DNA of 64,000 nt from Methanocaldococcus fervens AG86 (lineage in GTDB: Archaea > AGJL01 > Methanococci > Methanococcales > Methanocaldococcaceae): NCBI RefSeq assembly GCF_000023985.1, contig NC_013156.1, positions 298,363 to 362,362 on the forward strand, read 5' to 3'. The notes beneath the pieces were generated by a model. The model did not search any database and had not been told where the DNA came from. It saw nothing but the letters and a program-made list of their open reading frames with translations. Positions 3,809 to 63,650 of this stretch are shown here, piece by piece; the stretch's first letter is position 1; every line of letters starts with the position of its first letter. Position numbers and translations under genes: made by a program.

Positions 3809-5269
3809 ATGGAGAATACAAGTAATTTGATAAAAAATGCAAATGAATTTTTAGATTCTTTAAATGAACTCAGTGAAAAATTAAAAGAGGTAGTTGATAG
3901 TATAAAAAATAAAACCATTGATAAAACTGAATTGTTAAATATTATATTGATGCTGGAAAAGAATTTAGAGATTCTGCAGGATTTAAAATCAAAAATGGAA
4001 TTTTTAGAATTTGATTCTCCATATAAGAACGTTGGAAAGTTAAAAGGTTGTTATGATAACGAAGGTTTACAGGAAATAGCAAATTACAGCACATATTTAA
4101 GAAGGATTGCCAGTGAAAAGAAAGGAATATTAGAAAGAGTTAGGCATGCGTTAGTGGCACATAAAATTGCTTTAGCACATTTAACTGAAGATATTGGGAA
4201 CATAGATTTACCCCCAAACTTACCATTGGATGGTTCTTACAAAAAGGTAATGTTTGAATTCCCTCCTTACTTAGTTACAACCTATAAAGAATTTTTAGAC
4301 ATTTTAGAGCCAAAAGGTAGGGGAATTTTAACCTCCTATACCATATCACTTATAGTTGTTGAGAAAGGGAAGAGAGAGTTTAAAAGGATTAAAATTGAAG
4401 ATAAAAATTATGAAAAATATATTAAGGAGAAATTTGGAAATGCAATAATTACTTCAATAAAAAGAAATTTCTCAAAGAATAAGATTATTGATGACCAATA
4501 TGTTAGAAGAGTTTTGGCAATTGGCTATTTAAACACCTACAAAGATGAAATTGAAAAGGCAATAAATGAAAAAATTGATAAATTGCTTAATGAGGAAGAA
4601 AAAAAATGCCTTAAAAAATATTTAGAGCTCTGCCTAATGTTTAGAGATGAAGCGGACGTAAGTGGGGGCGTTTTAGATATTAGATGTATGGAAGAGAAGA
4701 AATTGAAAGAAATTGAACTTAAAGAAATGTTAGAAAAAGAAGGCTTATATAAAGATGGTGAGCCAATAGGATTATTAAAAAAAGCAATTAGAATCAAAAA
4801 CGAGCTATCTAAGAAAATAGCAAAAGATATATTGATAAAAAAATTTTCTGAGGATGTTTTTAAATTCTATCTCTACAAAACACCAGATGAAAGGGCGAGA
4901 AGTAATTTATTCCCATCTATTATGATAACTCCGCAAAAAGGGTTTTTATCTTGGATGAAAGTTGAGGGAGTTAATTGCGTTGATGTCTTAGATTTAAAGT
5001 TTAAATTGGAGGAGGAACTGCCAAAATACCAAATTCCTTTAAAGAATATTGGAGGAGTAGCTCTATATTTAATTCACGATTGGGAAGCTGTGAAAAGATT
5101 TAACTTCAATAAAAAAGATATTGAGGACTTATTGAAAAAAATAGCTCTAATAGAGCCAATAAAAGAAATTTTGAAGGATAAAAATGTAGATGTTAGTAAG
5201 TTAGAGAAGTTTGGTAAAGTTAAAAAAGAGAAAACTAAGAAGTTTTTGGATTTGTTGGGCGGGCTATAA
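3809..5269 (+). CDS. Conserved protein of unknown function (possibly DUF530 type)
   Basis: A 486-residue, probably soluble protein. The first 110 residues are rich in heptad-like Leu/Ile/Lys/Glu and likely form coiled-coil helices. The middle contains an alpha/beta stretch (SLIVVEKGKREFKRIKIEDKN). A patch with several cysteines lies near residues 270-295. The C-terminus ends KKFLDLLGGL. I do not recognise a catalytic motif; from memory it may belong to the methanogen-restricted DUF530 family, which I cannot verify. It follows the CCA-adding gene by 29 bases, with a weak GAGAGATT-type ribosome binding site. The last ~35 bases of the gene, including the stop, are repeated downstream at 5351-5384 beyond a hairpin element, suggesting the original 3' end was altered by an insertion. 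Confidence 0.7.
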   Translation: MENTSNLIKNANEFLDSLNELSEKLKEVVDSIKNKTIDKTELLNIILMLEKNLEILQDLKSKMEFLEFDSPYKNVGKLKGCYDNEGLQEIANYSTYLRRIASEKKGILERVRHALVAHKIALAHLTEDIGNIDLPPNLPLDGSYKKVMFEFPPYLVTTYKEFLDILEPKGRGILTSYTISLIVVEKGKREFKRIKIEDKNYEKYIKEKFGNAIITSIKRNFSKNKIIDDQYVRRVLAIGYLNTYKDEIEKAINEKIDKLLNEEEKKCLKKYLELCLMFRDEADVSGGVLDIRCMEEKKLKEIELKEMLEKEGLYKDGEPIGLLKKAIRIKNELSKKIAKDILIKKFSEDVFKFYLYKTPDERARSNLFPSIMITPQKGFLSWMKVEGVNCVDVLDLKFKLEEELPKYQIPLKNIGGVALYLIHDWEAVKRFNFNKKDIEDLLKKIALIEPIKEILKDKNVDVSKLEKFGKVKKEKTKKFLDLLGGL

Positions 5270-5384
5270 ATTTAAAATGGACGTTAATTAGGGCTGAAAG
5301 CCCTAACTTAATGGACGTGAGATATCCCAATAGGAGGTTTCCTCCCATGGCTAAGAAGTTTTTGGATTTATTGGGAGGTTATAA
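5235..5384. repeat. Palindromic element A with duplicated gene tail
   Basis: A hairpin-rich insert (5270-5350) lies between two near-copies of a ~35-base sequence, 5235-5269 and 5351-5384. The copies share 19 identical bases (CTAAGAAGTTTTTGGATTT) followed by a diverged end that still reads to TATAA. The left copy is the end of the coding sequence of the upstream gene. Inside the insert are a 7-bp stem at 5289-5305 (TAGGGCT-GAA-AGCCCTA), itself bounded by a 9-base direct repeat AATGGACGT (5276-5284 and 5310-5318), and a second hairpin at 5327-5350. The second hairpin resembles the CCAATAGGG...CCTATGG module of the longer elements at 25391 and 61520. Confidence 0.7.
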
Positions 5385-5412
5385 CTTTAGTTGTAAAAAT
5401 AACTTAATTTCA

Positions 5413-5940
5413 TTAAGCGGAGCGTAATTCATCAACTGTAACCAATGGAATTAATTTAACATTCTCCTTCTCCAAATTTTCTTTAGCACCCTCTAACCTA
5501 TCTACAACAACAAAAACCTTATCAACAATCCCACCATTTTCTCTAATCTCATTAACTGCCTTCAAAACACTACCTCCAGTTGTAGTAACATCCTCTACAA
5601 TAACTACCCTATCTCCTTCTTTTAATTCCCCTTCTATTTTATTTTTAGTTCCATAATCCTTTGGTTTTTTTCTAACAATCAACAAAGGCTTTTGTGCAAT
5701 AATTGAAACGGCAGTTGCTATTGGAACAGAACCGAGTTCAACACCAGCAACTTTTACATCTTCATCCCTTATTTGCTCAGCAATCATTTCCCCAACTAAC
5801 TTTAAAATCTCTGGATTTGTCGTAGCTTTCTTTATATCTATGTAATAGTTGCTCTTTTTACCAGAAGCTAAAATAAACTCTCCAAATTTTATACATCCAA
5901 TATCTCTAAGTAGTTTTATTAATTTAGATTTTTTATCCAT
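5413..5940 (-). CDS. pyrE: Orotate phosphoribosyltransferase
   Basis: Converts orotate and PRPP to OMP in pyrimidine synthesis. The PRPP-binding motif [13 protein letters not shown] lies at about residues 111-123 and the conserved K-K-P-K-D-Y-G-T segment at about 90-97; length (175 residues) is normal for the archaeal enzyme. A TTG at 5952 is possible, but GGTGATAATT directly before the ATG at 5940 fixes the start there. It is transcribed away from purP, its right neighbour, only in the sense that both run leftward with 88 bases between them, so they may share a transcript. Left of it the intergenic region carries palindromic element A. Confidence 0.95.
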
Positions 5941-6028
5941 AATTATCACCAAATGTTTAAATTTATTTAAATTTAAAAAACGCTGTTTAAATTAATACAA
6001 CAACTAAAACAAAAATAGTATAAAAGAT

Positions 6029-7114
6029 TTATGAAATAACTTTATCAATCATATCCAATTGTAGAGCCATCTTTATCTCTCTCGCTATTCTTTGTCCCAT
6101 GCTCAATGGCTCAGCGTTGTATAGGAATGAGTAAGGGCTACCATTCATAAAGCTGTTTGTTCCTCCATCAACTCTTGCACTCATCTCAAAAACAACCAGT
6201 TCGAGGTTTTCATTGCATAATGTTTGTAGACAGAACGGCCCAATCATTCCTGGAGGAACTAGCTCTTTTGCCTTTGCAACCAATTTATCTCCAATATCAA
6301 ACACTTGTGGTAATAAACTCTCTCTAATAACAACTGGAATGTTTCCTGTGATAACATAGCTTGGATTTATATCCATCTCTAACTGGTCTTTTGCTGGAAT
6401 CCTAACTAAACCATCTATATTACTCTCGTATCTTTTATCCATCCCCAATAACTCAACTTCATCCTTTAATGGGGAGTAGAAGTAATGGATACAGAAGTTT
6501 GTTCCAACTACATATTCTTCAATATGTGCGTTAGCTATATCTTCATCACTCAATATTCCCCTATTTTTCAACTCCTCCGCCTTTTTATAAAACTCTTCTG
6601 TTGATGAGGCTATGAAATAACCTCTACCTCCTCTTGCCCCCGGGAATTTAACTATAACTGTTCCATCAATATCCTCTGGGCTTTCATACTTCTTAGGAAC
6701 TCTTACCCCTGCCTCTCTCAACAATTTCCCTTCTAAACTTCTTTCTGACTCCCATCTTAATATTGCCCTATTTCCAAACATTGGAACTAAAAAATTGTTT
6801 TCAACGTTATCTAAACCACAATAAGCGATAAAAGAGCCATGTGGAACCACTATAGCATTTAATTCCCTCAATTTCTCTTGAATCTCTTCATTTTTTATAT
6901 CAGAAAAGTTATCAACATATATAAATTTGTCAGCAACTTTGAACCTCTTGTATGGGACATCCCTCCCTTTCATAGTTATACAAACAGTAGAAAAGCCTTC
7001 TAACTTTGCTCCTTTTAAAATATGTAGGGATGTGTGGCTCCCCAACGTTGCTATTGTTATCTCATCTTTGTTGTATTTGTCAAAAATCTCTAAAATTTCT
7101 TCTTTTTTAATCAT
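6029..7114 (-). CDS. purP: Formate-dependent FAICAR synthetase (PurP)
   Basis: ATP-grasp enzyme that forms 5-formaminoimidazole-4-carboxamide ribonucleotide from AICAR, formate and ATP, the archaeal replacement of the folate-dependent step. Recognisable segments include TLGSHTSLHILKGAK at about 24-38, the ATP-grasp stretch VIVKFPGARGGRGYF near 153-167, and the C-terminal VFEMSARVDGGTNSFMNG with the metal-binding Glu/Asn region. Length of 361 residues equals the M. jannaschii protein as I remember it. Translation starts after an AGGTGAAAT ribosome binding site. PurP and PurT (at 56-57 kb) are two formate-using purine enzymes in the same window. Divergent from the L31e gene with ~200 bases between. 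Confidence 0.95.
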   Translation of the reverse strand: MIKKEEILEIFDKYNKDEITIATLGSHTSLHILKGAKLEGFSTVCITMKGRDVPYKRFKVADKFIYVDNFSDIKNEEIQEKLRELNAIVVPHGSFIAYCGLDNVENNFLVPMFGNRAILRWESERSLEGKLLREAGVRVPKKYESPEDIDGTVIVKFPGARGGRGYFIASSTEEFYKKAEELKNRGILSDEDIANAHIEEYVVGTNFCIHYFYSPLKDEVELLGMDKRYESNIDGLVRIPAKDQLEMDINPSYVITGNIPVVIRESLLPQVFDIGDKLVAKAKELVPPGMIGPFCLQTLCNENLELVVFEMSARVDGGTNSFMNGSPYSFLYNAEPLSMGQRIAREIKMALQLDMIDKVIS

Positions 7115-7322
7115 CTATTTCACCTGGTAGGTTAGATAATATTAAATTTTTAAAAAAGAGTATATAATAATTACCACTAAGCTTTGGTGTCTTTAAATCT
7201 ACCAAATCATTATATTTTATAAAAAATTACCAATACTAAATCACCGTAATCTTTAAATATTCATTTCAATATCTCTAAGGTAAGAATATTTTTATTGCTT
7301 AATTATTTTGGAGGTGTGGATA

Positions 7323-7571
7323 ATGGAAGAAAGAATATATACAATTCCATTGAGGGATGTTATAAACAAATCAGTTAGAAACAAAAGAGCTCCAAGAGCT
7401 ATAAGGAAAATAAAGCAATTTTTAATGAGACACATGAAGGCAGATGTCGTTAAGATAGACAACGAGTTAAATGAAAAAATTTGGGCAAGAGGAATTCAAA
7501 AACCACCTGCAAGAGTCAGAGTTAAAGCAGTTAAAGAAGGAAATGTTGTTATAGCAACACTTGCAGAGTAA
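7323..7571 (+). CDS. rpl31e: 50S ribosomal protein L31e
   Basis: An 82-residue basic protein matching archaeal L31e: [15 protein letters not shown] at the N-terminus, the [17 protein letters not shown] core, and [13 protein letters not shown] near the end. It sits at the peptide-exit side of the large subunit. GGAGGTG at 7311-7317 precedes the ATG at 7323, so the in-frame ATG at 7308 is rejected as start. A TATA-like CTTTAAATATT at about 7250-7260 is a plausible promoter. The aIF6 gene follows 27 bases after the stop, and both act in 50S biogenesis or function, so co-transcription makes sense. Confidence 0.96.
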
Positions 7572-7598
7572 ATAATTTAAATCTAACATGTGATGGCT

Positions 7599-8279
7599 AT
7601 GATTATAAGAAAATACTTTTCAGGAATCCCTACAATTGGTGTATTGGCTACTACAACCGAGGATTTCACTCTATTACCAATTTTTCTTGAAAAAAATGAT
7701 GTTGATGAAGTTTCTGAAGTTTTAGGTACTAAATGCCTCCAAATCAATATTGGAGGTAGCTCTCTAATAGGCTCTTTATCAGTTGCAAATAAATATGGGC
7801 TTTTATTACCAAAAATTGTTGAAGATGAAGAACTAAAGAAGATAAAGAATTTTTTAAAAGAAAATGATTTTGATTTAACTATAGAAATTATAAAATCAAA
7901 AAACACGGCTTTAGGTAACTTAATATTAACAAACGATAAAGGAAGTTTAATTTCCGTAGAATTAAAAGACTTCAAAAAAGAGATTGAAGATGCTTTAAAT
8001 GTTGAGGTTGAAGTTGGCACTATTGCTGAACTTCCAACCGTTGGAAGTAATGCCGTTGTAACAAATAAAGGTTGTTTAACCCATCCATTAGTTGAAGATG
8101 AAGAGCTTGAATTTTTAAAAAGCTTGTTTAAAGTGGAATATATTGGCAAAGGGACAGCAAATAAAGGAACCACTTCAGTTGGAGCATGTATTATAGCAAA
8201 CTCTAAGGGAGCTGTAGTTGGAGGAGACACAACTGGTCCAGAGCTTTTAATGATTGAGGATGCGTTAGGATTAATTTAA
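7599..8279 (+). CDS. eif6: Translation initiation factor aIF6
   Basis: Anti-association factor that binds the 50S subunit, keeps it from joining 30S, and acts in 50S maturation. The sequence is a five-fold repeat of ~45 residues with the typical MIIRKYFSGIPTIGVLA start, GGSSLIGSLSVANKYGLLLP, TALGNLILTNDKG, ELPTVGSNAVVTNKGCL and TTSVGACIIANSKGAVVG. The 226-residue length is standard. A GTGAT ribosome binding element (7590-7594) supports ATG 7599 over the overlapping GTG at 7590. Its stop codon overlaps by 4 bases with the stop of the convergent CobT-like gene. It follows L31e and is probably in its operon. Confidence 0.97.
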   Translation: MIIRKYFSGIPTIGVLATTTEDFTLLPIFLEKNDVDEVSEVLGTKCLQINIGGSSLIGSLSVANKYGLLLPKIVEDEELKKIKNFLKENDFDLTIEIIKSKNTALGNLILTNDKGSLISVELKDFKKEIEDALNVEVEVGTIAELPTVGSNAVVTNKGCLTHPLVEDEELEFLKSLFKVEYIGKGTANKGTTSVGACIIANSKGAVVGGDTTGPELLMIEDALGLI

Positions 8280-9331
8280 GGTTTTTTATACCATTCATCA
8301 AACTTATTCTCTATAAACTCCCTTATTTTTATTGGATTTAAATTATTGGCTATGCAATAAACCGCTATCCCTCCAGCTCCCACTCCTTCTTTTACTGAAC
8401 CTTTACAGTAATTCCTCAATCCTTCAATCTTTGCATCTTCAAAGTAAAACTTAGACGCTAATATTGGAATATCTCCAATCTGCTCAATAATCCCTTTTAA
8501 ATCTCCTTTTTTATCATTTAAAACAAATTCAGTGGTTCCAATGGCTATTAAATTTTTATTTAAAATATCTTTATCAATCTCTTTTATGACTGCTAAAACA
8601 GCACTCATCTGAGTTCCTCCGGCTAAGATAACAGCTTTATTTTCTTCAGCAAAGCTTATTGCCAAACCAGCAGCAACTGGCATCATCTTATCTCCAACAG
8701 CATTTAAAACATCAAATACTGAAGAATTTTCGTTTATTTTTGCTTTCTTTAAACCTTCCCTAACAACCTTTATCTTTAATTCATGCGGGTTCTCTATAGA
8801 GCCAGAGCTAACCTTTCCCTCAGCATCATAACCTAAGCCAATTAAAACACCTAACGCTGTTGTAGTACCTCCAGGAACGCTTTCCCCAACAATCAACATA
8901 TCTGCATTAAGATTTTTCCCTAATAAATAAGCTTTCTCAAATAATTCTTTTGAGTTATCCATAGCTTTACCTTCCTCTATCTTCCCAGTAGGCTTTTCAT
9001 CAACCTCTATAAAGGGAATCTTTGGCTTAACAAAAGCTCCAGCATCAATATGTAAATTTTTTATATTTTTTAATTCAACACACGCCCTTGTTATTGTTGC
9101 AGGACTTGGTGAGCCAGTGGCATCTATTGGTGGAGTTTTTAAACTTAAAGATTTTCCACAAAAGACGAGTTCAACATCTGCAGCGGGAGTATATTTGATA
9201 ACATCCCTATGAACTCCAGATATTGGTATGTAAGTTGTTGTCTCTATTGATGAAATTACACAGGTAAATAATGGATTTTTTCCTTTAATTTTATCCAAAA
9301 ATCCGTTTTCATTTATTGCTATTATATCCAC
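8276..9331 (-). CDS. CobT-like nicotinate-nucleotide phosphoribosyltransferase family protein (UPF0284)
   Basis: A 351-residue protein related to CobT, which activates the lower base of cobamides. Family features are ATGSPSPATITRACVELK near residues 72-89, GESVPGGTTTALGVLIGLGYDAEG near 149-172, and GDKMMPVAAGLAISFAEE plus GGTQMSAVLAVI in the C-terminal half. Archaeal members of this type are annotated UPF0284; their exact base substrate is not established to my knowledge. It is convergent with aIF6 (4-base overlap) and divergent from the acetyl-CoA synthetase gene. The ~300 bases upstream hold a 111-bp nested inverted repeat that overlaps where its promoter should lie. Confidence 0.85.
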   Translation of the reverse strand: MDIIAINENGFLDKIKGKNPLFTCVISSIETTTYIPISGVHRDVIKYTPAADVELVFCGKSLSLKTPPIDATGSPSPATITRACVELKNIKNLHIDAGAFVKPKIPFIEVDEKPTGKIEEGKAMDNSKELFEKAYLLGKNLNADMLIVGESVPGGTTTALGVLIGLGYDAEGKVSSGSIENPHELKIKVVREGLKKAKINENSSVFDVLNAVGDKMMPVAAGLAISFAEENKAVILAGGTQMSAVLAVIKEIDKDILNKNLIAIGTTEFVLNDKKGDLKGIIEQIGDIPILASKFYFEDAKIEGLRNYCKGSVKEGVGAGGIAVYCIANNLNPIKIREFIENKFDEWYKKP

Positions 9332-9344
9332 ACTATCCCTCGTT

Positions 9345-9455
9345 TATAGTTCTTTCAAAATATTTTAGAATACATAATGTATTGATGAACTCCTTCATAA
9401 TGGAAGGAGTTCAAACTTCCTTAATAAATTTTATTAAGTTTTGAAAAGAACTATA
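9345..9455. repeat. Nested inverted repeat I in a divergent promoter region
   Basis: Outer arms 9345-9360 (TATAGTTCTTTCAAAA) and 9439-9455 (its complement with one extra base) enclose a perfect 10-bp stem at 9386-9413 (TGAACTCCTT, 8-base loop, complement) and a weaker AT-rich stem at 9418-9438. The whole 111-bp unit lies between the divergent CobT-like and acetyl-CoA synthetase genes. It does not share the sequence modules of the palindromic elements elsewhere in the window. It could be a decayed miniature transposable element or a structured regulatory site. Confidence 0.55.
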
Positions 9456-9542
9456 ATTAGATTTTTAATTTTTATGAGTAGTTGCCATTATAAATATATA
9501 AATATGCATTTCGTTGTTTGACGATATACATTTTTACAAAAA

Positions 9543-9606
9543 CCGAAAAATATTAATATAATGACATCTAAGATATTACATGTAAATTATCATGATCAAT
9601 CATGAT
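9543..9606 (+). promoter_or_regulatory. Probable acs promoter with paired operator half-sites
   Basis: A BRE/TATA-like stretch (CCGAAAAATATTAATATA, about 9543-9560) predicts transcription starting near 9583. Just downstream are two copies of the self-complementary octamer ATCATGAT at 9589-9596 and 9599-9606, centred 10 bp apart, so on the same face of the helix. A second TATA-like element (TTATAAATATATAAATA) lies near 9488-9504. The arrangement suggests repression of the acetyl-CoA synthetase gene by a dimeric DNA-binding protein; the protein is not known. Confidence 0.45.
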
Positions 9607-9633
9607 AGATTATTAACAAAGTTTGGTGTTAGT

Positions 9634-11541: not shown

Positions 11542-11574
11542 AAAATAAATTGGTTAAAATAAAGTTGAAATAAA

Positions 11575-12408: not shown

Positions 12409-12483
12409 GGTATCACAGAGAATATTTTATATACGTGGATGATAATTTACTGATTAAATGTTAAATTAATGTAGGGGAGATAG

Positions 12484-13017: not shown

Positions 13018-13019
13018 GG

Positions 13020-13502: not shown

Positions 13503-13526
13503 ATTTTAAATAAAGTTGGTGAGAGG

Positions 13527-14537: not shown

Positions 14538-14891
14538 TGTTTATCTCGCTGAAAGAGTTTTATTCTTTAAATAATGATTTTTATAACTTATTTTTGATTT
14601 TAAGGATTTTTAAAGAATTTCAAAGGGTAAGTTATTTTAAGTATTTAGATTAATTAAATTATAGAGATTTTTAAAGATTTAAGCTAATTATTTTTTAAAT
14701 TATAATTTCCCAAATAAAAAATAATATTTTAAAACATAAAAGTTTTAAAACTCTTTTTTATCTCTAAAAAGCAAAATTTATACCTGGTCGGAGGTATATA
14801 AATAAATGGGGTTAAGTGCCCTTCGACTTATAGGGTAACGAAAAGCATAAATATTATGAGTGTTAAAGATACACTTATCTTAAAATCTTTA
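14538..14891 (+). promoter_or_regulatory. Orphan CRISPR leader (copy 1)
   Basis: This 354-base AT-rich stretch is homologous along its length to the leader of the CRISPR array at 48655-49026. Shared landmarks in the same order are TATCTCGCTGAA, TTTTAAGGATTTTTAA, TTTCAAAGGGTAAGTTATTT, TTTAGATTAATTAAATTATA, GGTATATAAAT and CCCTTCGACTTATA. The promoter-like GGTATATAAAT is at about 14793 and a second TATA-like GCATAAATATTATG near 14847. The homology starts directly after the stop codon of the upstream gene in both places. Here it is followed by only one repeat. Confidence 0.8.
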
Positions 14892-14921
14892 GTTAAAATC
14901 AGACCGGAACGGAATGGAAAT
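14892..14921 (+). CRISPR. Solitary CRISPR repeat behind the orphan leader
   Basis: A 30-base unit starting GTTAAAATCAGACCGGAACG, differing from the main array repeat at the GGAATGG (array: GGTATGG) position and in the final T. No second copy is found in the following ~170 bases, so there is no spacer. It is a leader plus one repeat: a collapsed array, or a site that has not yet acquired spacers. Confidence 0.8.
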
Positions 14922-15002
14922 CATATAGTCTTTTAATTATAGTAAAACTACTGCTAACTAAGTTTTATAAAAATCAGCATAGAATAAAATTAAAAAAGAA
15001 AA

Positions 15003-15681: not shown

Positions 15682-15750
15682 ACTATCACCTATAGGGAAC
15701 TTTTAATCAACTTAATATATAAAATTTTTGCCTTTACTTTTTGTGGATAA

Positions 15751-16491: not shown

Positions 16492-16495
16492 AAAA

Positions 16496-19912: not shown

Positions 19913-20113
19913 ATGGATGAAGAGAGAAAATTTGGACTTTATTCCTTAATTCTTGGTTTGCTGTGTGTTGCGGGAATTGTTATGCTTAAGGGGCTTATAT
20001 GCTATATATTGTATGTTATTGCAGTTCCATCTTTATTGTATGGGATTGGAGCATTTGTAATTCCAAAAACAAGAAGAAAAGATGCAGGAAAATTACCATT
20101 TAGAGGTTATTAA
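19913..20113 (+). CDS. ehaI: Energy-converting hydrogenase A subunit EhaI
   Basis: A 66-residue membrane protein with two spans (about 9-27 and 30-50) and a short basic tail (PKTRRKDAGKLPFRGY). No motif; assigned by place. GGTGAAAAC precedes the ATG. Palindromic element B follows its stop at once, separating the first nine Eha genes from ehaJ. Confidence 0.75.
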   Translation: MDEERKFGLYSLILGLLCVAGIVMLKGLICYILYVIAVPSLLYGIGAFVIPKTRRKDAGKLPFRGY

Positions 20114-20116
20114 GGG

Positions 20117-20174
20117 AAAGTTTTACTAAAACTTTTATCAAAACATAACACCTCCTCGCTACGCTCGGAGGTGT
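20117..20174. repeat. Palindromic element B inside the Eha operon
   Basis: Two hairpins: AAAGTTTT-ACT-AAAACTTT at 20117-20135, followed by ATCAAAAC, and ACACCTCC-(11-base loop TCGCTACGCTC)-GGAGGTGT at 20148-20174. The first hairpin plus ATCAAAAC matches the left-end module of elements C, D, G and H; the 11-base loop is identical to that in the last hairpin of C and G although the stems differ. It starts 4 bases after the ehaI stop. Confidence 0.75.
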
Positions 20175-20206
20175 AAATTCATTAAATAAAAATCTGGGTG
20201 AGGATT

Positions 20207-24909: not shown

Positions 24910-25378
24910 ACATTTTAATTTAGAAGATAGAGGCATTGAAATACTCCCTAAATTCAACATCATTTTAAATAAAAGAGAAATCATTGTTAAGGAGGATAAA
25001 TGCATCAATTGTGGAAGATGTATTGAAGTCTGCCCAGTTAATGCAATAAACTATGATAAGAGTGGATTATTCATAAATATAGAGAAGGAAAAATGTGTTT
25101 TTTGTGGAAAGTGTAAAATGGTTTGCCCAACGGATGCCGTTGTAATAATAAGGTTGAGATGCGAAATTAACGAAGATACAAAGATTGTTGAAGTGAATAA
25201 ATATGAATTTATTGAGTACATGAGTGAAAAATGTGCCTCTTGTTTAGTTTGCTTAAGGAACTGCCCATTTAATGCTATCGAGGAATATGGGGAGAAGATT
25301 AGAATTGACATAAATAAATGTGAACTCTGTGGAAGATGTGAGGAAATATGCCCTTTAAATGCTATAATCTTGCGATGA
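24887..25378 (+). CDS. Eha-associated ferredoxin, four [4Fe-4S] motifs
   Basis: A 163-residue protein with four CxxCxxCxxxCP motifs: CINCGRCIEVC, CVFCGKCKMVC, CASCLVCLRNC and CELCGRCEEIC. The first ~35 residues (IIAKHFNLEDRGIEILPKFNIILN) are without Cys and may dock to the complex. It starts inside the end of the previous polyferredoxin gene (23-base overlap), with GAGGGAGC as ribosome binding site, implying coupled production. Element C starts 13 bases after its stop. Confidence 0.88.
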   Translation: MIKKIIAKHFNLEDRGIEILPKFNIILNKREIIVKEDKCINCGRCIEVCPVNAINYDKSGLFINIEKEKCVFCGKCKMVCPTDAVVIIRLRCEINEDTKIVEVNKYEFIEYMSEKCASCLVCLRNCPFNAIEEYGEKIRIDINKCELCGRCEEICPLNAIILR

Positions 25379-25390
25379 AGCCTTTAGCAA

Positions 25391-25638
25391 CAACCTTTTA
25401 GTAAAAGGTTGCTCGAACAACCTTTTAAGAAAAGGTTGATCAAAACTTATGGGTATACCAATAGGGCGTGAGTCCTATGGTGCATTGATCAAAACGGATG
25501 CATTAAGGAAGGGCTTTTCAGCCCTTCATAATGTCTCTTAGTTAAAGTGGAGTTGCCAAAGGCAACTCCGCTCTGGGTATAGCAATAGGGCGAAGCCCTA
25601 TGCATGTATTGCCTCGCTACGCTCGGCAAGGTCTCTTA
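25391..25638. repeat. Palindromic element C (248 bp, full-length, inside Eha operon)
   Basis: A chain of six hairpins: two CAACCTTTT...AAAAGGTTG-type stems (25391-25411 and about 25418-25439), CCAATAGGGCGTGAGTCCTATGG (about 25458-25480), GAAGGGCT-TTTC-AGCCCTTC near 25508-25528, GGAGTTGCC-AAA-GGCAACTCC near 25549-25569, and AATAGGGCGAAGCCCTATG plus TGCC-(11-base loop)-GGCA near 25584-25628. It ends CTCTTA. Element G (61520-61765) is its reverse complement with one substitution and one compensated stem change. It separates the two last polyferredoxin genes. Confidence 0.88.
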
Positions 25639-37185: not shown

Positions 37186-37282
37186 CAACCTTTTAGAAAA
37201 AGGTTGATCAAAACCCATAGGGGCGTAGCCCCTATGGTATACTCCAGGATGCATTGCTTCCTTGAGGAAGCAATGCCTCTTA
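37186..37282. repeat. Palindromic element D directly after a stop codon
   Basis: A 97-bp unit made of three hairpins: CAACCTTTTAGAAAAAGGTTG followed by ATCAAAAC, then CCATAGGGGCGTAGCCCCTATGG, then GGATGCATTGCTTCC with its complement GGAAGCAATGC, ending CTCTTA at 37282. The left module, GGATGCATT and the CTCTTA end are shared with C, F, G and H. It starts at the first base after the stop codon of the PAC2-family gene. Confidence 0.82.
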
Positions 37283-44457: not shown

Positions 44458-44569
44458 GCCGAGGTGGCTTAGCTGGTTATAGCGCCCGGCTCATACGGAT
44501 ATCCCAGCCCTACGGCTGGGTTCCTGGGAAACCGGGAGGTCGAGGGTTCGAATCCCTCCCTCGGCACCA
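44458..44569 (+). tRNA. Elongator tRNA-Met (CAT) with 35-nt intron
   Basis: Exons 44458-44495 and 44531-44569 form a complete tRNA: GCCGAGG/CCTCGGC acceptor, anticodon CAT at 44492-44494, and encoded CCA at 44567-44569. The intron, 44496-44530, follows the base 3' of the anticodon, the canonical archaeal site, and contains a stable stem (CCCAGCC-CTAC-GGCTGGG, about 44503-44520) suited to a bulge-helix-bulge processed by the tRNA splicing endonuclease. A promoter (GAAAAGTATATATAT, about 44417-44430) lies upstream. Confidence 0.94.
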
Positions 44570-48654: not shown

Positions 48655-49026
48655 ATGGTTATTATCTCGCTGAATAAGTTTTATTTTTGAAATAATTAGT
48701 TTTTATATTTTATTTTTCGATTTTAAGGATTTTTAAGAAATTTCAAAGGGTAAGTTATTTTAATTATTTTGAATATTTAGATTAATTAAATTATATGGAA
48801 TTTTTAAAATATTTTAGTTAATTATTTTAACTAAAAATTTCCACAATAAAAAATTATTATTTTAAAAAATAATTGCTTTAAAACTATTTTTAAGCCTAAA
48901 AATTAAAATTTATATGGATGAGAAGGTATATAAATGAATGGGATTAAGTACCCTTCGACTTATAAGGTAGAGTAAAGTATATATATTAATAATGCTAAAA
49001 ATATGCTTATCTCGAATAATTGGTCT
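48655..49026 (+). promoter_or_regulatory. CRISPR leader (copy 2, active array)
   Basis: An AT-rich 372-base leader ending at the first repeat. Landmarks shared with the orphan copy at 14538 are TATCTCGCTGAA, TTTTAAGGATTTTTAA, TTTCAAAGGGTAAGTTATTT, TTTAGATTAATTAAATTATA, GGTATATAAAT and CCCTTCGACTTATA. Two promoter-like boxes are seen: GGTATATAAATG near 48927 and AGTATATATATTA near 48976-48988; the latter would start the pre-crRNA near 49005-49012. The homology begins directly after the preceding stop codon. Confidence 0.85.
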
Positions 49027-49528
49027 GTTAAAATCAGACCGGAACGGTATGGAAAGATGTGTTCTTCACCGATTGCAATCAACAAGTCTGGTTAAAATCA
49101 GACCGGAACGGTATGGAAAGATCAACTCCACAATTTTTTCAATGGTTATGGTGCTAGTTAAAATCAGACCGGAACGGTATGGAAAGTTGTCATTTGCTAT
49201 TTTATTAAGTGCAAGATAGTATGGTTAAAATCAGACCGGAACGGTATGGAAAGATATAGAGTTTTGAGAAGTTTCATGTTGCTCACATTTTAATGGGTTA
49301 AAATCAGACCGGAACGGTATGGAAAGCTCGCTCGCAAATCCTTAGATATTGCAAAAATCCCAGTTAAAATCAGACCGGAACGGTATGGAAAGTATTGAAC
49401 ATTCAAAAATAAAAGACACTTCTAAAGAGTTAAAATCAGACCGGAACGGTATGGAAATAATTGACTCTCTGTTACTTCTATTTTCAATATTTTGCCGTGT
49501 TAAAATAAGACAGTCTCGGTATGGAAAC
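49027..49528 (+). CRISPR. CRISPR array, 8 repeats and 7 spacers
   Basis: Thirty-base repeats begin at 49027, 49091, 49157, 49224, 49297, 49363, 49429 and 49499. The consensus begins GTTAAAATCAGACCGGAACG and ends GTATGGAAAG. Repeats 1-6 are identical, repeat 7 ends in T, and repeat 8 is degenerate over its middle (AAGACAGTCTCGG), as expected for the leader-distal end. Spacers are 34, 36, 37, 43, 36, 36 and 40 bases. The repeat carries a tiny CCG-GAA-CGG stem; the M. jannaschii repeat as I recall has the same stem with TTT in its loop. No cas gene lies within the window, so processing and adaptation must be supplied from elsewhere. Confidence 0.97.
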
Positions 49529-49693
49529 GCTATGCCAAAAAGAGACGAGAGTCCTGCCCAAATACACAATAGTCAAAAATAGGATTGATACTTAAAAATC
49601 TCGGGATTGGACGTTAGATTGGATTTGAGTAAATTAAAATAGAAAAACTAAAATTAATTCATTATTAATGAGAAAATAGAAAATTTATAAAAA

Positions 49694-52054: not shown

Positions 52055-52080
52055 AGTATCCCCCTAAAATTGTGATATAA

Positions 52081-52716: not shown

Positions 52717-52772
52717 ATAGGATTGTATAAAATTATCAATAAAAATAAGAACTAAATTTAGGGGATGGTCAT

Positions 52773-54009: not shown

Positions 54010-54018
54010 GGTGAAAAC

Positions 54019-55227: not shown

Positions 55228-55243
55228 ATATACATATATATTT

Positions 55244-56020: not shown

Positions 56021-56144
56021 AAAACTTCCCCTCGCCAAATAGCAATAAATTATTGGAAATCTTCTTAAAAAAGATATCTAAGAAATAAGAATATAATCTA
56101 AAACTAAGACTAAATGTAAGTCAAAAAAGTTTTGTTTAAAAGTT

Positions 56145-57314: not shown

Positions 57315-57414
57315 ATATTCCACCACAAAATTTACATCAAAATTATAATAGTTAATCTTCAAAATTATCATTTATTATATTTTTGCATTGAAATAAAAAA
57401 AGATAATCTAAAAA

Positions 57415-59241
57415 TTATCTTCCCCAGAATATGTTGTTTGTTAGTTTTTGCATCAATTCCATGTATTTTAATAACGCCTCTTTTTCATCACTTCTCAACC
57501 TATCCATATACTTATGGTAGAGCTCTCTAACGTGGTTTTCTGGAACCGCAACATACATATAATCTCCTTCATCAACATGCCTCTTTAATACAACTCTTCC
57601 ATCTATAGCTATTGAAACAGCTTTTCCTGCCTTTGCTTCTCTAACATTCTCCCCTCTATCTTTTATCTCCCTAACATATCCTAATTGCATTCCATCCTCT
57701 CTCATTAATGGAGCTCCAACTCTCAAAGTTCCATATAGAACTTCAACCCCACAAATTGCAGGGTCTTTCTGCCTAAATATACAGTCAGGTAAAATCCTAA
57801 CAATAGCTGGCTTAATAAGTTTTTCAAACTCTTCATATTTGATTCTCTCCTCTTCTTTTTTAACCCATTCTGTAAAGTCCTCAACCAACTTGTAAATAAT
57901 ATTATCTACAAATACTTTTATTCCATACTTCTCAATCTCTTTCTGAGCTTCAGGCAAAATCTTTACATTAAATGCAACTATCGCCCCATACAATGGATTA
58001 CTCTGCTTGTATGAGGCAACTTCAATAACATCCTTCTTAGTTACATCTCCAACCTCTGCCTTTTTAATCTTAACTCCTGCCTTTCTTAGCTCATTAGCCA
58101 ATGCCTCCAATGAACCAAGAGTATCTGCTTTTATTAAGATACCTTCATCATCAACCTCTATCTTTGCCTCCTCAACTTCTCTCATTACCTCCTCTTTTGC
58201 TTCCTCTATCTTATCTTTTGGAACAATCCTTATAGGGCAGCCAGCTATAACTTTATCTAAATCAGGAGCCGCTATCTTAACTCCTGCTGCCGCTGTAACT
58301 TCATTAACTGGCTTAAATTTGTCTCTTGGGTCTCTCATCTCATCCAATGGTTTTGGTTTTAGTAATGCCTTAACTCTTGTTACTAAAACACCATCAGGCA
58401 ATCCAACAACTAAATAATCTCCTCTCTTAGCAATCCCATCATAAATTATTGCATCGATTGTTGTTCCCAATCCCCTCTCTTCTTTAACTTCCAATATTGT
58501 CCCTTTTGCATAACCCTCAACATTGAGTTTTAATCTATCCTCCAAAAACTTCTGGGCTAAACCTGCAACCATCATTAATAAATCAGGAATCCCTTCCCCA
58601 GTAACTGCTGAAACGGGAACAATACAGACGGTTTTTGTTACATCTTGAACTCTTGAATATAAATCTGCCTCAAAACCAAGCTCATTTAATGGTTTTATTA
58701 CATTTTCATACAATCTTATTTCAAATTCGGTTAATGCATTTGGGTGTTGGTTTTTTTCATTGAAGTTTAATATGAAAGGCATTTCCTTAGAGTTCCACCC
58801 TGGAATTAGGTCAATTTTATTTGCTGCAACAACAAATGGGGTTTTACACTGCCTCAATATATTAACTGCCTCAATAGTTTGTGGTTTAAATCCTTCATTT
58901 ATATCAACAACTAAAATGGCTATATCAGCCAAAGCTCCTCCTCTCTTTCTTAAAGATGTGAATGCTTCATGTCCAGGAGTATCTATAACTAACAATCCAG
59001 GGATTTTTAAGTCTGCTTTTAGCATATTTAATAGATCTCCACAAACTCTTTTTATAACATCTATTGGGATTTCACTCGCCCCTATGTGTTGGGTAATCCC
59101 TCCAGCTTCTCTTTTAGCCACTCTTGTTTTTCTTATTTTATCTAAAAGCGTCGTTTTTCCATGGTCTACATGTCCTAAAACACATACAATTGGACATCTG
59201 AGATTTCCTCCGTTTTTAGTTTTTTTATCTTTTTTAGCCAT
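57415..59241 (-). CDS. infB: Translation initiation factor aIF5B (IF2), without intein
   Basis: A 608-residue GTPase that helps join ribosomal subunits at initiation. The G domain has GHVDHGKTT at residues 23-31 uninterrupted, [10 protein letters not shown], and NKID near 144-147. Domain II holds the beta barrel; domains III and IV follow. In M. jannaschii the same gene carries a large intein in the P-loop; here it is absent and the site reads through normally. GAGGGGATTTTT before ATG 59241 sets the start. Upstream, element E lies between this gene and the divergent NTPase gene. Confidence 0.96.
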
Positions 59242-59349
59242 AAAAATCCCCTCTTTATTTGTGTTTTCGTAAAAATGATGTAAAAAATAATAAGCATACA
59301 AAAGTTATAAAAATTTATATTGGATGCTATCTTTTTAGTAATGTTATAT

Positions 59350-59440
59350 ATAGATTACTAACCATATCAGCCTTTTAAGAAAAGCCTGGGGAAAATTATT
59401 TTGATGAAACTTTTACTAAAAGTTTCATAGATTACTGAAC
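59350..59440. repeat. Palindromic element E between short direct repeats
   Basis: A 64-bp insert (about 59363-59426) is flanked by direct repeats ATAGATTACT-AAC at 59350-59362 and ATAGATTACT-GAAC at 59427-59440. Its right side is the hairpin GAAACTTTT-ACT-AAAAGTTTC near 59406-59426, preceded by TTTTGAT, the reverse complement of the left module of elements C and D. An imperfect GCCTTTT...AAAAGCC stem lies at about 59372-59390. It looks like an inverted, shortened member of the family with a target-site duplication. Confidence 0.6.
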
Positions 59441-59461
59441 TTATTATTTGGAGGAATCATC

Positions 59462-60115
59462 ATGGACTTTGAAAATAAGAAATGTGAAATTTGTGGTAAA
59501 AAAGCAGAGATTTTTCTATTTGGGAAGTTTTTATGCAAAAATGAAAAATGCATTGAAGAGGCAAAAAAATTGAGTATGGCAAGACATAAGTTTAGAGTTG
59601 TTGCTGTTGGTTCTACAAACCCAGTAAAGATAGAGGCGGTTAAGGAAGGTTTTGAGAAGGTTTTAGGGGCTGTAGAAGTTATTGGGGTTGATGTGGATAG
59701 TAATGTCTCATCACACCCAATTGGCTTAGAGGAAACGTATTTGGGGGCTTTGAATAGGGCTAAAAATGCATTTGAAAAGGTTCAATGTTCTTATGGTGTT
59801 GGGATAGAGGCAGGTTTAATAGAGGTTGGGGGGCATTATATAGATATCCACGTATGTGTTGTGTTTGATGGAGTTAAAGAGACAGTAGGCTTATCTCAAG
59901 GCTTTGAATATCCAAAGATTGTTGCTGAAAATGTTTTGAAAGGTATTGAAGGGGGAAAGACAGCTGAAGAAATATCAGGTATTAAAGATATTGGAAAAAA
60001 TATTGGTTTGATTGGTTATTTAACTGACAACAACATAACAAGGAAAGATTTGTGTAGAGATAGTGTTATAATGGCATTAATTCCAAGAATGATGAAAAAC
60101 ATATATTTATATTAA
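59462..60115 (+). CDS. Inosine/xanthosine triphosphatase (DUF84/YjjX type) with zinc ribbon
   Basis: A 217-residue protein. A short zinc ribbon comes first (CEICGKKAEIF...CKNEKC, cysteines near 8, 11, 25 and 30), followed by the DUF84 NTPase domain: AVGSTNPVKIEAVKEGFEKVLG (about 49-70), VSSHPIGLEETYLGALNRAKNAF, YGVGIEAGLIEVGGHYIDIHVCVVFDG. The family clears deaminated purine triphosphates. GGAGGAATC precedes the ATG. The signal peptidase gene begins 12 bases after its stop. Confidence 0.87.
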   Translation: MDFENKKCEICGKKAEIFLFGKFLCKNEKCIEEAKKLSMARHKFRVVAVGSTNPVKIEAVKEGFEKVLGAVEVIGVDVDSNVSSHPIGLEETYLGALNRAKNAFEKVQCSYGVGIEAGLIEVGGHYIDIHVCVVFDGVKETVGLSQGFEYPKIVAENVLKGIEGGKTAEEISGIKDIGKNIGLIGYLTDNNITRKDLCRDSVIMALIPRMMKNIYLY

Positions 60116-60127
60116 AGAGGTGGAATT

Positions 60128-60772
60128 ATTAATCTAAAAATAAGTAAAAAGGATGTAGTTGAATGGATAATATTTTTAATTGTTTTAATTTTAATTTGGA
60201 GCCATGTAAATGTTGTTGTATCTAACAGTATGTATCCTATTATGAAGAGAGGAGATTTGGTTGTAGTTGAAAATGCAGGATTTGAATTCAACCCACAAAA
60301 TGTTGATGTTGGAGATATTGTAGTTTATAAAGCTCACTGGCCTCATTATCACATAATATCCAATAATAAAACCTTGTACATATTTAAGGAAGGGGATGCT
60401 AAAGATATACAAATAAGAGTTTTGGGAGAGCTAAAAACAGATAAAGGAGTTTATAAAATATTAGAGGCAGAGATTACAGAAAGCCCTACAAGGCCTGTGA
60501 TACATAGAGTTATTGATAAGGTTGAGTATAATAATAAAACCTACTTTATTATAAAAGGAGATAATAACAAAATTCATGATCCAGAGCTTGTTTCAGTTAA
60601 TCAAATAAAGAAAAGAGTTATAACTATAAATGGGTATCCTTTAGTAATCCCATATATTGGATATTTATCAATATTCGTTAAAGAATACTGGTATTTGGTA
60701 ATTTTGTTTATAATAATTTATTATGCATACGATTATATTAGAGAAGGGAAAAATGAAAAAAGTAATACCTAG
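60128..60772 (+). CDS. Type I signal peptidase, probable ATT start codon
   Basis: A ~214-residue membrane peptidase that removes signal peptides outside the cell membrane. The catalytic Ser lies in SNSMYP (S34 counted from the ATT), with H126 (PVIHRVID) and D145/D151 (KGDNNKIHDPE) as the archaeal Ser-His-Asp group. The first ATG in frame (60230) is directly after the catalytic Ser and would lose both it and the N-terminal span (WIIFLIVLILIW). Upstream to the stop at 60113 there is no ATG, GTG or TTG in frame. A strong GAGGTGGAATT site ends just before ATT 60128, which I take as start. A C-terminal span lies near 186-202. Confidence 0.8.
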   Translation: MNLKISKKDVVEWIIFLIVLILIWSHVNVVVSNSMYPIMKRGDLVVVENAGFEFNPQNVDVGDIVVYKAHWPHYHIISNNKTLYIFKEGDAKDIQIRVLGELKTDKGVYKILEAEITESPTRPVIHRVIDKVEYNNKTYFIIKGDNNKIHDPELVSVNQIKKRVITINGYPLVIPYIGYLSIFVKEYWYLVILFIIIYYAYDYIREGKNEKSNT

Positions 60773-60897
60773 GGACAAAGTCCTGTTGATGTATCTTAGA
60801 GCAGAGATTCACTATGTTAATTCCAACTGTATCTAAGAGGCATTACTCCCTTACGGAAGTAATGCATCCGTTTTAATGAAACTTTTACAAAAGTTTC
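60773..60897. repeat. Palindromic element F between signal peptidase and secreted-protein genes
   Basis: The core 60834-60897 is an inverted copy of the family: TAAGAGG, then GCATTACT-(loop)-AGTAATGC, ATCCGTTTTAAT, and a terminal hairpin GAAACTTTT-AC-AAAAGTTTC at 60878-60897. A small GGAC-AAA-GTCC stem (60773-60783) and TATCTTAGA...TCTAAGAGG arms lie to its left. The terminal hairpin touches the GGTGAG ribosome binding site (60898-60903) of the next gene. Confidence 0.75.
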
Positions 60898-60906
60898 GGT
60901 GAGAAG

Positions 60907-61509
60907 ATGAAAAAGCTCCTGTTAATTTTTGGAATACTCGTATTGATAACCTCAACCTCCATGTGTATCAGCCACAATAATTTAAATGACTTAAAAAAGA
61001 GCGTAGTGGTTGAGGTTAATGGAACTCCTGTAGAGATTCCGTTAAGGGCAACAGTTGGCGAAGCAAAAGACGTGAAGTTGATAAACACAACTGACGATGA
61101 GATTTACAACTATTACCGCTCAAAGATGTTGATTTACATATACGGGAATATGAGTTTAAAACCAGCTGAAGGTGGGGTAGCAATAGTTGATTTGGTAACA
61201 AAATTAAAATGGTTCAACCAATTTTACCCTCACAACATAGTTGTTGAGCTAGAGAGAAATAATTCAACTGTAACTGTGGAAAGTTTCTTTGCAAATGGAA
61301 AACGCTCAACAGATAAACTTAAAATAAACGAGAGTGAATATTTAATGAACAACAATAAAACAATGGTTATAAAGATTATAAAAACCCAAAACAATGCAAC
61401 AATAACAAAAATAAACAATACATTTATAATTGAAGGAAATTCTTTAGAGGAGTTGGATAAAGCAGAAACAAGGTTCGTAATAGCTTTATTTAAGGGTAGT
61501 GTAAGCTAA
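60907..61509 (+). CDS. Secreted or lipoprotein-like protein of unknown function
   Basis: A 200-residue protein with a signal sequence (KKLLLIFGILVLITSTSMCIS); a Cys near residue 20 could be a lipid site, although the preceding residues are a poor lipobox. The exported part has about eight N-x-S/T sites for N-glycosylation (for example NGT, NTT, NMS, NNST, NKT and NAT). No family recognised. It follows the signal peptidase gene through element F. The 3' end of the gene (around 61465-61492) is repeated at about 61771-61797 beyond element G, where it reads TRFVIALFRSNML and a stop, so the present C-terminus may be a product of that insertion. Confidence 0.7.
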   Translation: MKKLLLIFGILVLITSTSMCISHNNLNDLKKSVVVEVNGTPVEIPLRATVGEAKDVKLINTTDDEIYNYYRSKMLIYIYGNMSLKPAEGGVAIVDLVTKLKWFNQFYPHNIVVELERNNSTVTVESFFANGKRSTDKLKINESEYLMNNNKTMVIKIIKTQNNATITKINNTFIIEGNSLEELDKAETRFVIALFKGSVS

Positions 61510-61815
61510 TTTAATAACCTAAGAGACCTTGCCGAGCGTAGCGAGGCAATACATGCATAGGGCTTCGCCCTATTGCTATACCCAGAGCGGAGTTGCCTTT
61601 GGCAACTCCACTTTAACTAAGAGACATTATGAGGGGCTTTAGCCCCTCCTTAATGCATCCGTTTTGATCAACGCACCATAGGACTCACGCCCTATTGGTA
61701 TACCCATAAGTTTTGATCAACCTTTTCTTAAAAGGTTGTTCGAGCAACCTTTTACTAAAAGGTTGAGAAGGAACGAGGTTTGTTATAGCTTTATTTAGAA
61801 GCAACATGCTCTAAA
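61465..61815. repeat. Palindromic element G (246 bp) with duplicated gene tail
   Basis: 61520-61765 is the reverse complement of element C (25391-25638). The two differ by a single base (GCA/GCG before TTGATC) and in one hairpin, where GAAGGGCT-TTTC-AGCCCTTC in C is GAGGGGCT-AA-AGCCCCTC here, keeping the stem paired. On both sides lie related copies of a gene tail: ACAAGGTTCGTAATAGCTTT (from 61469) ends the upstream gene, and ACGAGGTTTGTTATAGCTTT (from 61773) follows the element. The translations are TRFVIALFKGSVS-stop and TRFVIALFRSNML-stop. Confidence 0.85.
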
Positions 61816-61860
61816 ATACAAATTTATTTCATTTTTATTTCATTTTTAATGGTGTTTTTT

Positions 61861-63063
61861 ATGCTGATTGTTGATGTAAATCATGGAGCTTTGCAGTTAG
61901 CTGAAGAGTATTTAAATTTAGGATATAACGTTGATGTATGGGATATTTATCAAAAAATAAAAAAATCGGAGGATTTTAAAATCAAATATCAAAACTTAAA
62001 AGAAAAATTTGGAAATAGGTTAAATTTATTTTTTGAAAATCCAGATTTTGAAAAATACGATAAAATTATAGCTCCAATACACTGCCCAATAGATGTTAAT
62101 TTTATCCCATTCACAGATGCAGTTTCTGAGATATTAGAAGAAAAATTTGGAAATGTCCATAAAAAAATAATAAACATAACTGGAGTTAAAGGCAAAACAA
62201 CAACGACAACACTTATAAACCACATTTTAAAAGAAAAATATTCAACTTATTTACATAACTCAAATTTTGGTTCCATTGCTCCACCAACTATTTTAAAGAT
62301 TTTAAACAACTTAGATGTTGATAAATACGATTTTTTCATATTTGAAACATCTTTGGGGTTAATTAAATGTAAGTATGGAGCCATAACCAATGTCTTAGAA
62401 AATTATAAGATAGCGGGTGGAAGGAGAGACGCACTAACCGCAAAATTCAGTTCTTTAAAAAATGCTGAAACCTCTTTTGTAAATAAGAGAGATATTGAGA
62501 AATACAACCTAAACATAAAACATAAATGCTTAAATGTTATAGATGTTGATAAGGCGGAGATTTTAAACAAATATCCGTTAAAATTTAAATATTTTGAAAA
62601 GGTCTTTGAATTTAATAAAAATGTCTTTGGATTGCATTTTGTAGAAAATTCATTATTTGCAATAGAGATTTGTAAAAATTTGGTTGATATTGATGAAATA
62701 AAGGAAAGACTAAAAACCTTCACCATAAAAAACAGAATGGAGATTAAAAAAATCGATAAAAAATTTTTAGTTAAAAATATCAACCCTGGTTTGGATATTA
62801 AAGCTATTTATTATGCTATAAAAGATTTCTTAGAAGTTTTTGATGGGGATATCTATATAGGAGGAGATTTTGGAGTTGTGTGTGAGGAAATTGATGTTAA
62901 GAAACTCGCCGATATTTTGAAGAAGTTTAATTGCAAATACATATTTGTTGGAGAGATTGGTAGGGAGCTGTTAAATTATTTAGATGGAATATATATAAAA
63001 AAATTTGATGAAAATAAAATAAAAAATAACTCTTTAGTTATCCTCAGGGAAAAGTTGAGTTAA
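61861..63063 (+). CDS. cfbE: Mur ligase-family protein, probable coenzyme F430 synthetase
   Basis: About 400 residues. The central domain has the Mur-ligase P-loop ITGVKGKTTTTTLINHIL (about 110-127) and FIFETSLGL, with a C-terminal ligase domain ending VGEIGRELLNYLDG. Methanogens without peptidoglycan use one such ligase, CfbE, to form the lactam ring of coenzyme F430; the short N-terminal domain here suits that type better than a pseudomurein ligase. The specific assignment is inference. GGTGTTTTT before ATG 61861 sets the start. It overlaps the UPF0254 gene (convergent) by 4 bases. Confidence 0.7.
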   Translation: MLIVDVNHGALQLAEEYLNLGYNVDVWDIYQKIKKSEDFKIKYQNLKEKFGNRLNLFFENPDFEKYDKIIAPIHCPIDVNFIPFTDAVSEILEEKFGNVHKKIINITGVKGKTTTTTLINHILKEKYSTYLHNSNFGSIAPPTILKILNNLDVDKYDFFIFETSLGLIKCKYGAITNVLENYKIAGGRRDALTAKFSSLKNAETSFVNKRDIEKYNLNIKHKCLNVIDVDKAEILNKYPLKFKYFEKVFEFNKNVFGLHFVENSLFAIEICKNLVDIDEIKERLKTFTIKNRMEIKKIDKKFLVKNINPGLDIKAIYYAIKDFLEVFDGDIYIGGDFGVVCEEIDVKKLADILKKFNCKYIFVGEIGRELLNYLDGIYIKKFDENKIKNNSLVILREKLS

Positions 63064-63566
63064 ATAAAATATTCCTCCTTCAAAATCTCTAAGAACTTTT
63101 TTATCCCTATCTCGATGCCATTTTTTTGCCTCTCTTTAACATTTTCAAATGTTATTAAGTTTGCATAGACATCTGAAGTAAATAAATGGCAGTTTTTGTC
63201 TGTTATTATGCAAATAGCTCCCCTCCCAACTCCTGCAGTGCTTCCAATGGCTATATTGACATTTAACTTTTTCTTCAACACCTCTGCCATCAATTTAGCA
63301 ACAATTAAATCCTTCTCTTCGCTGTATGCCTTTGCATACTTATAGCTATAATCTGGCTCTGGAAGTTTTATATCTAAGAGTTTTTCAGCCCCTATAATTG
63401 AGGGTATGAACATGGCAGTTATGATCTTAACGTTCTTCACTAATTTTAAATCTTCATCAGAAAATAAATACTTAAATTCAAAATCTTCATAACCAGCGGC
63501 TGCTTTATGAATTGTTAAGCCTATATTTGCATGTGTAAAGCATTCAGCAGTTGCAACAGTTATCAT
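63060..63566 (-). CDS. UPF0254 family protein
   Basis: A 168-residue protein with MITVATAECFTHANIGLTIHKAAAGYEDF at the N-terminus and AIGSTAGVGRGAICIITDKNCHLFTSDVYANL in the second half, which I recognise as UPF0254, a methanogen-specific family of unknown function. Cysteine and histidine residues are conserved near both ends (AECFTHANIG). GGGAGGGAG suits ATG 63566; ATG 63569 is adjacent. It sits opposite the probable cfbE; whether they are functionally linked is not known. Confidence 0.75.
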   Translation of the reverse strand: MITVATAECFTHANIGLTIHKAAAGYEDFEFKYLFSDEDLKLVKNVKIITAMFIPSIIGAEKLLDIKLPEPDYSYKYAKAYSEEKDLIVAKLMAEVLKKKLNVNIAIGSTAGVGRGAICIITDKNCHLFTSDVYANLITFENVKERQKNGIEIGIKKFLEILKEEYFI

Positions 63567-63577
63567 CATCTCCCTCC

Positions 63578-63650
63578 CAACCTTTTAGAAAAAGCTTGAC
63601 CAAAACAGATGCATTAAGGAAGGGCTTTCAACCCTTCATAAAGCCTCTTA
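63578..63650. repeat. Palindromic element H (short form)
   Basis: A 73-bp form: CAACCTTTTAGAAAAAGCTTG followed by ACCAAAAC (left module), then GATGCATTAAGGAAGGGCTT with TCAACCCTTC completing the hairpin, and ending CCTCTTA. It carries only the two end modules of element C, so it may be the minimal unit. It lies between the divergent UPF0254 and methyltransferase genes, 9 bases from the start of the former. Confidence 0.75.

Follow-up and report, generated by a model that had tools for sequence, protein, structure and literature searches.

The hairpin units in the window (the whole stretch of 64,000 nucleotides analysed here) are probably small, non-coding and non-autonomous insertion elements, which are assembled from exchangeable palindromes, duplicate the ends of genes and are confined to Methanocaldococcus as far as searched. 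Genomes are denoted by G numbers; G000 is the window's own genome and G003 (chromosome 1,664,970 bp) is taken by us to be that of M. jannaschii.

Units in the window and its genome

The eight units (A to H) of the preliminary description were present at or near the places given. The modular repeat family is real, since module counts, with palindromes counted on both strands, were far above those of shuffled sequence (0-0.1 for each of the following). The CCATAGG-hairpin module was found four times in the window, the CAACCTTTT and GAAACTTTT hairpin modules 10+4 times and the GATGCATT..CTCTTA module five times. The units and the duplicated gene ends are as follows, together with one empty site.

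5235..5274, plus strand: gene-attached copy of the 3' end of ORF 3809-5269 (direct repeat D17; score 52, unreached by any null pair)
5270..5350, minus strand: unit A, GGACGTTAATT..AACTTAATGGACG hairpin and CCAATAGGAGG..CCTCCCATGG terminal hairpin (from the sequence and the orthologous site)
5351..5389, plus strand: detached copy of the end of ORF 3809-5269, beyond unit A, with only synonymous differences in its coding part
20113..20178, plus strand: unit B, a short member with AAAGTTTTACTAAAACTTTT hairpin, ATCAAAAC and ACACCTCC..GGAGGTGT hairpin
25376..25638, plus strand: unit C, long composite with its core at 25391-25638 (248 bp)
37186..37282, plus strand: unit D, CAACCTTTT hairpin, CCATAGGGG hairpin and GGATGCATT..CTCTTA
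44458..44566, plus strand: tRNA gene, the 3' side of which is an empty site in the window, filled in G003
59363..59428, plus strand: unit E, AGCCTTTTAAGAAAAGCC and GAAACTTTT hairpins, between ATAGATTACTAAC (59350-59362) and ATAGATTACTGAAC (59427-59440)
60744..60764, plus strand: probable detached copy of the start region of ORF 60907-61509, the attached copy being at 60898-60917 (by eye and from the empty G001 site)
60768..60897, minus strand: unit F, GAAACTTTT hairpin, CATCC..CTCTTA module, degenerate AGTTGGAATTAAC..GCTCT module and CCTAGG terminal hairpin
61461..61492, plus strand: gene-attached copy of the 3' end of ORF 60907-61509 (score 39, unreached by any null pair)
61520..61765, minus strand: unit G, second copy of the long composite
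61766..61797, plus strand: detached copy of the 3' end of ORF 60907-61509, beyond unit G; in G006 it lies beyond a different unit too
63578..63650, plus strand: unit H, CAACCTTTT hairpin and GATGCATT..CTCTTA, between two divergent start codons

The limits of the units needed correction at F, which spans about 60768-60897, is longer than first described and extends over the stop codon of the preceding ORF. Similarly, the initial rule that units lie mostly behind stop codons was too narrow: E and H precede start codons, and one side of a unit is adjacent to a gene end of any kind (3', 5' or tRNA), which is often duplicated on the far side. The absence of coding capacity was borne out, as no unit holds an ORF of note. 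Unit A is a member with other modules, i.e., GGACGTTAATT..AACTTAATGGACG plus CCAATAGG..CCCATGG. C (25391-25638) and G (61520-61765) are inverted copies of each other and 98-99% identical (I1/I2).

A covariance model, as had been suggested beforehand, was built from 15 sequences of the minimal unit (CCATAGGGC..GCCCTATTGGNATACCCGGGATGCATTGCC..GGCAATGCCTCTTA), unit D among them. In the window it recovered D (E=2e-14), C and G (9e-9) and F (0.002), and A only at E=0.25. In the 1,507,251 bp of G000 (1,485,061 + 22,190 bp), the core GGATGCATTN4-30CTCTTA occurred in 24 copies, 22 of which are intergenic, and the reversed control gave none. CCATAGGGC..GCCCTATTGGTATACC was found inverted at either end of some units, and no autonomous element was seen.

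Filled, empty and rebuilt sites

The proposed search for empty sites was carried out at A, C, D, F and G, at the tRNA gene 44458-44566 and at L142 of M. jannaschii, and filled and empty states were found. At site A, the same unit was present in G003 and other modules in G001 and G006, and the site was empty in G010, G005, G004, G009 and G008. Site B was empty in G001 and occupied in G006 and G003, with the start of the next gene duplicated. Site C was empty in eight other genomes, and G011 carried a minimal unit there together with a duplicated gene end. Different units occupied site D in seven species, with empty sites in G006 and G013. The place of unit E held no unit in G001, G006 and G003; site F was filled in G000 only, with no unit there among the relatives read; and at site G, another unit was present in G006, a remnant was left in G001 and nothing was found in G003.

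These filled, empty and differently built sites indicate that units are gained, lost and rebuilt at their sites. As several junctions were common to more than one species, many of the insertions are old. A site scored as empty may also be one from which a unit was excised. The earlier view of the units as a mosaic and as non-autonomous mobile elements is supported by the filled and empty sites, by a perfect 35-bp flanking repeat (described below) and by different modules at one and the same site in different species. A GC-rich insertion resembling the IS605 type was also observed in G006 (L054), where it takes the place of unit A behind the ORF 3809-5269 orthologue.

Duplicated gene ends, polarity and tRNA sites

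Many units have a copy (28-65 bp) of the end of a neighbouring gene on either side. The end in question may be a 3' end, a 5' end or the 3' end of a tRNA gene, and because the unit stands between the two copies, the gene stays intact. These would be long target-site duplications; their lengths vary and their outer edges are blurred. Within the window, such pairs were found at A (5235-5274 and 5351-5389) and G (61461-61492 and 61766-61797) and probably at F, and the flanking repeat of E reached p=0.09 only. Most of the G000 copies had no flanking repeat above the null. End duplication is thus common, not universal, in what remains visible.

The arrangement of the duplicated ends is polar. Among 40 distinct minimal units, all 13 with a recognisable ORF had the intact ORF on the CTCTTA side, and in the same 13 the detached copy abutted the CCATAGG end, for 3' and 5' ends alike. 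The flanking repeat of L142 in M. jannaschii is identical at 35 of 35 positions and spans both the upstream stop codon and the downstream start codon; the orthologous site was empty in G006 and G000. All five tRNA insertions (L020, L026, L031, L039 and L127) had their junction exactly 5' of the T-loop sequence GTTCRAATC. The empty counterpart of L026 is the window tRNA gene at 44458-44566, and in G003 a unit stands directly behind the orthologue of this gene, and beyond it the 3'-terminal 21 nt of the tRNA are repeated. Four of the five displaced tRNA fragments had GTTT versus GTTC in the intact gene, and this GTTT perhaps represents the terminal bases of the unit itself (AAACGAAACTTTT end).

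Such structures could also be attributed to replication accidents, in which palindromes drive template switching, a short stretch becomes duplicated and the gap is filled with a copied hairpin, all with no dedicated enzyme. Repeats of varying length (28-65 bp), loops that are found in either orientation (GCTTCTTTGCAGAAGC / GCTTCTGCAAAGAAGC), the mosaics and the fact that no transposase was found are all in concordance with this. However, the single exact position of the tRNA insertions and the constant polarity of the units toward the gene argue for a defined reaction, and we regard replication accidents as an unlikely origin.

Synonymous divergence between end copies

The two copies of a gene end differed mostly at synonymous positions. 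In 21 coding pairs, 57 synonymous and 13 non-synonymous differences were counted (pS 0.377, pN 0.022). Non-synonymous changes made up 19% of the differences versus 67% expected if the detached copy were neutral (p=2e-16, in a test that treats changes as independent). Nine of the 21 pairs were hand-picked (sites A, B, G, FeS and SMC), and the 12 automatic pairs alone gave 36 synonymous versus 5 non-synonymous differences. The pairs were detected by nucleotide similarity only, and therefore no bias toward synonymous changes was introduced. An old SMC pair in G000 showed decay, with 7 synonymous and 4 non-synonymous differences.

Simple decay of a target duplication is ruled out by this mostly synonymous pattern. 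Gene conversion alone, which was seen once, cannot yield mostly synonymous differences at pS 0.38. The one case is the FeS gene, for which G013 and G007 have a common unit: the end copies were identical within each genome, and two codons differed between the genomes, alike in both copies, which indicates gene conversion. In the SMC gene of G003, the detached copy resembled the empty sister G006 and the attached copy resembled the filled G011. From the synonymous pattern, one case of gene conversion and one suggestive phylogenetic case, we infer that functional alleles of other strains or species seem to be the source of the end copies or to recombine with them. Between G013 and G007, the RFC gene differed at 8 of its last 18 codons versus 24 of 163 in its body, and the RFC and SMC end windows varied also between genomes without units. 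The intein content of the replication factor C small subunit seemingly differs among Methanocaldococcus genomes as well (L204-L216).

The main rival to exchange with functional alleles is a foreign end carried in by the element, i.e., a mobile unit in which the hairpin chain travels with a gene end acquired from a different species, comparable to the att core that a tRNA-targeting integrative element carries. It would explain why the differences between the copies look like those between orthologues of two species (pS 0.38, pN 0.02), why the attached SMC copy resembles G011 and why the RFC end differs more than its body. However, the copies at L142, L036, L048 and FeS of G013 and G007 are identical or nearly so, the targets differ at every site, and the variation of the RFC and SMC ends is also found in genomes without units. 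A carried-in end is therefore considered improbable.

Distribution and conservation of the stems

Units were found in 12 of the 14 Methanocaldococcus genomes. The model of the minimal unit had 20-41 matches in most of them (40 in G003); G007 and G013 had 6-8, G012 had a single match, and no match was obtained in G002 or G008. When 257 Gb of prokaryote genomes were scanned with the left-hairpin pattern, 33 stretches were returned, all in records of Methanocaldococcus, Methanocaldococcaceae or Methanococci, and the same pattern scan found zero units in viral contigs. The 248-bp composite was complete only in G000 (three copies, 96-100% identity), which points to a recent local form; G003 and G006 had partial relatives of 82-87% identity.

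Paired changes preserve the stems. Within the CTCTTA module, 95.6% of the cells of the stem pair, and 16 double-change cells were observed versus 4.3 in shuffles (0/500); the covariation was lost when the structures were slid. The units had no match in Rfam, even at E 0.1.

These compensatory changes in palindromes, the intergenic position of 22 of 24 copies and a tandem G.A-like motif seen by eye in the commonest loop would suit functional RNA or DNA signals, such as terminators, protectors of mRNA 3' ends or protein-binding sites, which are selected behind genes and spread by recombination, the duplicated ends being incidental. However, the same site may be filled, empty or occupied by a different unit in related species, and units are found next to tRNA genes and within CRISPR arrays as well as at both the 3' and the 5' ends of genes. 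The lack of an Rfam match and the perfect 35-bp target repeat speak against such signals too, and we judge them quite unlikely to account for the family.

CRISPR neighbourhood

Several units are associated with CRISPR loci. In G004 and G005, the degenerate last repeat on the trailer side of CRISPR arrays harbours units (L027, L037, L046, L047, L104, L113 and L133-L136). CRISPR leaders begin directly behind the CTCTTA end at two places in G001 (L044 and L249). At L249 (G001:C1:149000-156500), which lies behind the ORF 60907-61509 orthologue, the gene end carries a remnant unit, and a leader and a CRISPR array separate this remnant from the displaced end copy. The window has two related CRISPR leaders (14591-14923 and 48714-49530); the first is followed by a single repeat and the second by an array, the last repeat of which is degenerate.

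Integration of the Cas1 type was considered as a general cause of the flanking repeats because units lie in CRISPR repeats in G004 and G005; it is rejected as such because of the variable repeat lengths and the trailer-end position of the units. CRISPR arrays as cargo were likewise rejected, since there is one such case in G001 but the arrays of G000 are without units or flanking repeats.

Relation to known systems

Suyama, Lathe and Bork are said to have described palindromic repetitive DNA elements of Methanocaldococcus jannaschii, 'MJRE1-3', in 2005 (FEBS Lett 579:5281), reportedly with no duplicated gene ends, polarity, tRNA sites or empty sites. Because a genome with exactly the M. jannaschii chromosome length (G003) carries 40 of the present units as dispersed palindromic repeats, the units are probably those elements, as judged from host genome and description. 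The units and MJRE are alike in genus and in being palindromic, dispersed and mostly extragenic. The initial remark that no matching named family was known is thus probably superseded. In the literature search for a named family, the only match was the 2005 M. jannaschii publication, which appears in the reference list of the Yersinia paper PMC2229807. As far as checked, the gene-end duplications, the polarity, the exact tRNA site, the empty sites and the mostly synonymous divergence are new.

The units resemble MITEs in being short, non-coding, structured and repeated in many copies, with direct repeats at many insertions. They differ from MITEs in that the repeats are 28-65 bp versus a few bases, in that hairpin chains replace simple terminal inverted repeats, and in that no parent transposon was found for them. 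REP/BIME with RAYT and the PATE of Haloquadratum are short palindromes chained at gene tails which go with Y1 transposases; the present units are alike in the chained palindromes at gene tails but differ in that Y1 is absent in 12 of the 14 genomes. They share with tRNA-targeting integrative elements (tyrosine integrases) the insertion at the T-loop, at a fixed position in 5/5 cases, and the restored 3' end with a displaced copy; however, they are only about 70-350 bp, without integrase, and their targets are mostly unrelated ends of protein genes. YPAL/RU-2 of Yersinia is a palindromic intergenic repeat with target duplications of 3-26 bp and filled and empty sites (PMC2229807). It is similar to the units in these respects, including the variable duplication length, and differs in being bacterial and a single 168-bp unit with shorter duplications and with no gene-end rule in PMC2229807.

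Possible mechanism and implications

An IS element or transposase with matching ends had been proposed as a partner and was looked for; none was found, and no integrase or autonomous partner was identified. Y1 (HUH) transposases were absent from 12 of the 14 genomes, G000 included. PF01797 was found in G006 only, plus G013 in a form with internal stop codons. The Y1 transposase relative at L297/L298 (G013:C1:48334-48675) carries internal stop codons. An integrase of their own does not fit into the units, which are too short and hold no such ORF.

For insertion elements of this kind, a putative enzyme would insert the unit by a long staggered or copy-making reaction, by which the target is duplicated. 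The insertions would persist chiefly at places where the duplication covers the end of a gene and leaves both neighbours intact, and the direct repeats could allow scarless loss of the unit. Units at occupied sites may later be rebuilt by recombination between copies, giving mosaics such as the 248-bp composite in G000. Sequence exchange between the two end copies, and between them and functional alleles that are empty or foreign, might account for the mostly synonymous differences. It is possible, and proposed here tentatively, that a mobile hairpin element habitually duplicates the end of its target gene, that the copies are kept synonymous by recombination with functional alleles from other strains or species and that the elements are hot spots of interspecies swapping of gene ends.

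A duplicated stretch that spans the gene end would be a simple reason why insertions can accumulate in gene-dense archaeal genomes without breakage of genes. The end duplications also form a fossil record. Ordinary decay can hardly account for their mostly synonymous divergence, and this divergence opens exchange between strains, or a foreign origin, to direct testing. The enzyme, if found, would be unusual in combining long and variable target duplications with an exact tRNA site.
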